Shown: piece after piece, positions 29,701-30,190 of the stretch | How the letters are laid out: each line of letters starts with the position of its first letter | How positions within the stretch are numbered: the stretch's first letter is position 1 | Assembly (NCBI GenBank): GCA_033807695.1 | Contig: CM066304.1 | Location: 2,418,001-2,482,000, forward strand | Direction of reading: 5' to 3' | DNA length: 64,000 bases | From: Daedaleopsis sinensis | Lineage: Eukaryota; Basidiomycota; Agaricomycetes; Polyporales; Polyporaceae | Notes under the pieces: model-generated | What the model was told of the DNA's origin: nothing | Database searches by the model: none | What the model saw: only the letters and a program-made list of their open reading frames with translations | Made by a program: the position numbers and the translations under genes

Positions 29701-29710
29701 GTATATAAGG
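29701..29710 (+). promoter_or_regulatory. TATA box of the repeat-peptide precursor gene
   Basis: GTATATAAGG is found 92 bp before the ATG at 29793 and is followed by a pyrimidine-rich leader (CTTGCCTTCATCCGCTCGTC and on), a typical strong fungal core promoter. Confidence 0.75.
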
Positions 29711-29792: not shown

Positions 29793-30190
29793 ATGTCGTT
29801 CAAGGCAGTAATCCTCTTCTTAAACCTTTTGGCTGCTGTTACTACTCCGGTATGTCTTGATATTGTTTCATCTTTCACTCAATCCTATCATGCGTGGTGT
29901 GTGCTAAATCACGCTTGTCTTCGTCGTTTGGCAGAGCGCGGCGACGCCGCTCGAAGACTCGATACACTCGGAGACTACTGGCGAGCCCGATGCGTATTGG
30001 GCTCTCAGTAACTGGGTTATCAAGCGCGATGAGGCTTCCGTAGCTCAGCCGGAGTCGGATGCCTCGGTCGAGCCTGACGCGTTTTGGGCTCTGAGCAACT
30101 GGGTAATCAAGCGTGCACCCAGTGAAGAGGTAAGCAAACGGTCATATCATTTATTCGTCGTCTATTGACAATCGCCAATCGAAGCAGTGA
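29793..30190 (+). CDS. Secreted repeat-peptide precursor with Kex2 (KR) sites
   Basis: I do not recognise a named family. Exon 1 (29793-29849) encodes the hydrophobic signal MSFKAVILFLNLLAAVTTP. After an 85-nt intron, exon 2 (29935-30129) contains two near-identical units, GEPDAYWALSNWVIKR and VEPDAFWALSNWVIKR, 29 residues apart, with spacer DEASVAQPESDASV. Each unit ends in Lys-Arg, the cleavage signal of the Golgi protease Kex2. The residues before the aromatic core pair up as EP and DA, dipeptides of the kind trimmed by Ste13-type aminopeptidases. This predicts release of the nonapeptides [Y/F]WALSNWVI. After RAPSEE a donor GTAAGC leads either to a 58-nt intron and an immediate TGA at 30188 (84 residues), or to a distant exon at 30776-30832. 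It has a TATA box and sits alone between unrelated genes. The role, signalling or a modified peptide product, is inferred. Confidence 0.75.

Follow-up and report, generated by a model that had tools for sequence, protein, structure and literature searches.

The question raised by this locus is whether a polypore, Daedaleopsis sinensis, encodes a secreted repeat peptide of the alpha-factor build, and if so to which class its product would belong. Within the 64,000-nucleotide stretch of DNA analysed here (the window), a three-exon gene on the forward strand spans 29793..30190, exactly as a sequence-only reading had placed it. Joined, its exons form an open frame of 84 residues encoding MSFKAVILFLNLLAAVTTPSAATPLEDSIHSETTGEPDAYWALSNWVIKRDEASVAQPESDASVEPDAFWALSNWVIKRAPSEE, and both introns run from GT to AG. 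The features are as follows.

29702..29710, forward strand: TATA-like element TATATAAGG, about 90 bases upstream of the ATG; a promoter role is presumed from its sequence
29793..29849, forward strand: exon 1, with the start codon and a hydrophobic, signal-peptide-like stretch MSFKAVILFLNLLAAVTTP; aligns without gaps to the D. nitida protein P0001
29850..29934, forward strand: intron 1, 85 bases, GTATGT..CAG; the junction agrees with D. nitida P0001
29935..30129, forward strand: exon 2, with the end of the signal region, an acidic pro-stretch, unit 1, the spacer, unit 2 and a short tail
29983..30027, forward strand: unit 1, EPDAYWALSNWVIKR
30028..30069, forward strand: spacer between the units, DEASVAQPESDASV, 14 residues
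30070..30114, forward strand: unit 2, EPDAFWALSNWVIKR
30130..30187, forward strand: intron 2, 58 bases, GTAAGC..CAG
30188..30190, forward strand: exon 3, the stop codon TGA

The start codon is directly preceded by CACC. Exon 1 is strongly hydrophobic, with a 9-residue Kyte-Doolittle mean of up to 2.78, and the residues S-A-A stand before the supposed mature start; judged from this hydropathy, a putative signal peptide is present. The gene lies at 2.448 Mb of contig C5 and is its own single match in the 51.6-Mb genome (E <= 0.001).

Sequence analysis revealed two EPDA[Y/F]WALSNWVIKR units, identical at 14 of 15 residues and each closed by Lys-Arg. Two units are the minimum for a repeat protein. 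At the DNA level the units differ at 7 of 45 bases, comprising six silent third-position changes and the single Tyr-to-Phe change; in 200,000 trials, seven random substitutions left at most one amino-acid change with a frequency of 0.0004. The repeat is thus old enough for its DNA to have diverged while the protein was held. Among the window frames of at least 40 residues, five pairs of 10-mers ending in (K/R)R share at least 6 of 10 positions: the pair in this gene reaches 9, and the other four, all arginine-rich and of low complexity, reach 8, 7, 6 and 6. In a control of 100 first-order Markov windows, which leaves low complexity unmodelled, 99 held no such pair and one held a pair with 6 identities. 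No dibasic site precedes unit 1, and the two predicted products therefore cannot be identical.

Searches of about 5.8 billion proteins, covering those of 0.55–1.75 times the query length that share exact 5-residue words and hence missing relatives with many more units, returned two relatives, P0001 and P0002, each about 80% identical. A profile search with the three-sequence alignment (E <= 10) recovered the same two among 592 candidates. P0001, an 89-residue hypothetical protein of Daedaleopsis nitida (Polyporaceae) and the only named relative found, aligns over its full length, starting at the first Met and continuing across the exon junction, in support of the spliced gene model. That the exons are merely chance open frames has a negligible probability, and we rejected it given the silent-biased divergence of the units, the full-length D. 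nitida protein spanning the same junction and the Markov control. P0002 is an 87-residue unspliced ORF on a 2.9-kb contig. In our reading it appears to start inside the region matching intron 1 and to read on through the intron end; its first residues would thus be intron-derived rather than a signal peptide, and its overall identity understates the likeness. At its other end, P0002 closes with VVSKRSYHV, resembling the end that the window gene would have if intron 2 were retained, in which case the frame would add VSKRSYHLFVVY with another Lys-Arg and stop at 30166-30168.

The stretch WALSNWVIKR, Lys-Arg included, is unchanged in both units of all three sequences. In unit 2 this stretch is preceded by Phe in the window gene and by Tyr in both relatives, and D. 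nitida P0001 has a Gly inserted before this Tyr and a Leu in the spacer. Identity to D. nitida is 29/30 residues within the units versus 38/54 elsewhere (Fisher P 0.004); the same test for P0002 gave P 0.00009, a value inflated by its intron-derived start. The loss of the repeat or of the Lys-Arg sites in relatives, which the sequence-only reading had named as evidence against it, is seen in neither P0001 nor P0002. In the spacer, DEASVAQP is also invariant in all three sequences. Being as invariant as the core, this stretch leaves the core boundary uncertain, and the core is not the sole constrained part. The precursor matched no sequence in PDB, no NCBIfam model and no Pfam family (E <= 10), MF_alpha and MF_alpha_N included. 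A Pfam SHIRT match on P0001 (E 0.092) fell below the cut-off and was taken as chance.

With its hydrophobic start, its units ending in Lys-Arg and a relative in another Polyporaceae species, the gene supports the earlier proposal that a basidiomycete encodes a secreted repeat precursor of the Kex2 type. We consider it to be, in all likelihood, a linear-peptide KEX2-processed repeat protein (KEP), an assignment drawn from the observed gene anatomy, the in-frame repeat and the conservation of units and Lys-Arg sites in two relatives. We further infer that the precursor is transcribed, processed and functional. The signal peptide would be removed near A22. Kex2 in the Golgi would then cut after each Lys-Arg, and Kex1 would trim off the Lys-Arg. 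The predicted secreted products are two linear peptides, both acidic and with a C-terminal half that is aromatic and ends in WALSNWVI, the first of about 26 residues, TPLEDSIHSETTGEPDAYWALSNWVI, and the second of about 27 residues, DEASVAQPESDASVEPDAFWALSNWVI. Further N-terminal trimming via EP-DA to YWALSNWVI and FWALSNWVI may follow, for which another cut would be needed first. The calculated masses (M+H) are 2931.368 for the 26-mer, 2933.348 for the 27-mer, 1151.588 for YWALSNWVI and 1135.594 for FWALSNWVI. In the genome, an exon-wise search, by which some may be missed, gave a single proprotein-convertase P-domain match, whereas C. cinerea and other agaricomycetes are stated to have three kex2 genes (PMC9769878). 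Two adjoining DPPIV_N matches lie on C5, the first with two internal stops that may be introns. Together, the P-domain and DPPIV_N matches suggest that the presumed processing enzymes are present.

A special case of the KEP assignment, with which its probability overlaps, is an alpha-pheromone-like hormone, in which Kex2, Kex1 and Ste13 would release the nonapeptide [Y/F]WALSNWVI for a seven-transmembrane receptor of the same species. We regard it as possible but rather unlikely. The window gene and ascomycete alpha-pheromone precursors share a secreted repeat build with Lys-Arg; the latter have an aromatic core of similar length. In the window gene and in P0002, two STE13-type dipeptides, EP-DA, immediately precede each core, as they do for core 1 in D. 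nitida; the genome has the DPPIV_N matches, and a core of 9 residues falls within the class of 9-24 residues (PMC6339444). Against this, Lys-Arg is followed in all three sequences by DE and AS, which are not dipeptides of the XA/XP type, and a Ste13-type enzyme would thus stall. For either unit of the window gene, the XA/XP run counted back from the core is two, and for unit 2 of D. nitida it is zero if the core begins at Tyr; the Gly inserted there shifts the register, and if it belongs to the core, EP-DA precedes this core too. Given an unbroken XA/XP run limited to EP and DA, and DE and AS following Lys-Arg, the alpha-factor build is, at the level of sequence, echoed and not fully reproduced. 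The earlier likening to alpha-factor therefore stands for the dipeptides just before the core, which fit STE13, and not for the rest of the spacer. Two relatives are also too few for showing a conserved signal, and the window gene differs from the ascomycete precursors in its incomplete STE13 run and in having no MF_alpha match.

The receptor searches also bear on the pheromone reading. STE2, the receptor type sought for an alpha-type pheromone, matched nowhere in the genome, and neither did the control, which leaves its absence unproven. STE3 gave 24 matches, 21 of them on C4 (1.30-1.42 Mb) and three at C5:1.53 Mb, about 0.9 Mb from the gene. As the gene lies beside neither group, we rejected it as a gene of the mating-type locus. 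The C5 matches (C5:1531118-1532125) stand apart from the C4 group, and one of the three pieces carries internal stop codons. We also considered a polypore-specific, unlipidated hormone, either [Y/F]WALSNWVI or the acidic form of 26-27 residues, which would pass from hypha to hypha via a novel receptor outside the CaaX-pheromone/STE3 system; this idea is speculative and we give it a low probability.

The neighbourhood of the gene was also analysed. Of the 173 window ORFs of at least 120 residues, we scanned 37 neighbouring ones, as exon pieces, against Pfam, 30 at E <= 0.01 and 7 at E <= 1. Matches over the cut-off were DUF4246, RhoGEF (2 ORFs), CNH, GT2 (two overlapping models), GCV_T and AMP-binding (2 ORFs, one with its C-terminal domain), and those below it were MCM3 winged helix, F-box, PH_5, fungal transcription factor and FLYWCH. 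Among these 37 ORFs, no UstYa, tyrosinase, P450 or methyltransferase domain was found, GCV_T (aminomethyltransferase), about 20 kb from the gene, aside, and no biosynthetic cluster was seen. These results bear on a dikaritin-like precursor of a modified ribosomal natural product, cyclised on Tyr or Trp. Its Kex2-repeat build is common to ustiloxin-type precursors (PMC7329392), the core is aromatic-rich and the genome gave 12 matches to UstYa (DUF3328). However, these matches lie on C3, C8, C10, C11 and C12 and none on C5 in an exon-wise search, the neighbours over the cut-off are those listed above, and unit 2 has Phe where unit 1 has Tyr. Such a product is thus highly improbable; a dikaritin cluster was rejected given that the exon-wise search gave no UstYa match on C5 and the 37 scanned neighbours showed no such gene, and a linear peptide is favoured.

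A surface or cell-wall peptide like the Rep1 repellent of Ustilago maydis, which releases 37-residue peptides (PMC6339444), also appears improbable. The predicted peptides, for which net charges were computed, have an amphiphilic build, with an acidic N-terminal half and an aromatic and aliphatic C-terminal half, but there are only two units, the peptides are shorter than those of Rep1, and no Pfam family is matched; the comparison with Rep1 was made by description.

The KEP assignment places the gene in a known class. The sequence-only reading had expected a product class different for basidiomycetes, a view that two reports do not support. KEPs were reported in 2019 from nearly all fungi, including basidiomycete ones, some with clear alpha-factor-like STE13 signatures (PMC6339444). 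In 2022, KEP peptides were detected in four mushrooms, with Coprinopsis, Lentinula and Pleurotus among those named (PMC9769878), so that the peptide class is not new. Another survey put the number of basidiomycete KEPs at 1680 and placed 103 of these close to DUF3328 genes (PMC7329392). According to PMC9769878, agaricomycetes are established producers of linear KEP peptides with minimal modification, many basidiomycetes have homologues of STE13, and for the most part it is not known what KEP peptides do. In contrast, the remark that no described family with the WALSNWVI core is known agrees with our literature search, which did not find it, although it may be listed in the supplementary tables of the KEP surveys; nor did that search find 'KEX2-processed' together with 'Polyporales'. 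The locus is therefore a real KEP-type polypore gene, of a known class, whose peptide we did not find described.

Compared by the text of PMC9769878, the C. cinerea KEP 490115 and the P. ostreatus KEP 1091723 share with the window gene a short secreted precursor, repeats bounded by dibasic sites, a core tryptophan and XA/XP dipeptides. They differ in that the window core ends in WVI rather than W or ADW, and that the window gene has two units and an incomplete STE13 run. The putative alpha-pheromone-like KEPs of Basidiomycota described in PMC6339444 likewise share the signal-like start, the Kex2 sites and STE13-type dipeptides adjacent to the core; their STE13 signature is described as very clear and repeated, whereas the window gene has an unbroken run of two dipeptides.

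A pattern search of the genome for W..xS/T-like[N/D]W..KR gave five matches versus one in the control, and two of the five are the window gene. The others were rejected as paralogues: L020 and L021 lie in frames of 23 and 54 residues without a repeat, and L022 (WACTNWSWKR) is a single copy in a 187-residue frame. Separately, we observed a second KEP-like frame on the minus strand (L025:1467-1700; C10 near 1,453,724-1,453,797), with a signal-like start MRSAFIAYLLAAVLLIGNVTA and DPQNGSKDWKR repeats, in which, as in mushroom KEPs already described, Lys-Arg is followed by the STE13-type DP and the core ends in DW. Its first repeat is preceded by an in-frame TAG, and this copy thus looks interrupted, unless spliced or misassembled. 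An identical 48-base match at C4:3024211-3024258 and C11:2517408-2517455 is probably a dispersed repeat.

As a yardstick for range, the neighbouring DUF4246 frame was searched, and 4184 of 7993 scored candidates passed E 1e-30. The best 120 of these 4184 include 30 named species that we take to belong to Polyporales, versus one named species, D. nitida, among the relatives found for the peptide precursor. This hints at a narrow taxonomic range of the precursor, and at no more than that, since DUF4246 is multi-copy and small genes often go unannotated. The closest match to the DUF4246 frame among the best 120 of 4184 is P0003, 89% identical, while the D. nitida DUF4246 protein P0008, 52% identical to the window frame, need not be its orthologue. 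The longest contig given for P0001, and likewise for P0008, measures 2,393,311 bases, consistent with one scaffold.

In summary, this locus offers a simple two-unit KEP precursor with one genomic copy found, exact predicted masses and a named relative, which make detection of the peptide and removal of the gene straightforward to plan. Its incomplete alpha-factor-like spacer is useful for asking how precursors gain or lose STE13 trimming. The peptide would most likely act extracellularly, mediating communication among hyphae or with organisms nearby, a role that we offer as a guess that could fall either way. It is in line with the agaricomycete KEP study in which knocking out six KEP genes had no visible effect in axenic culture and whose authors suggested that the peptides act toward the biotic environment (PMC9769878).
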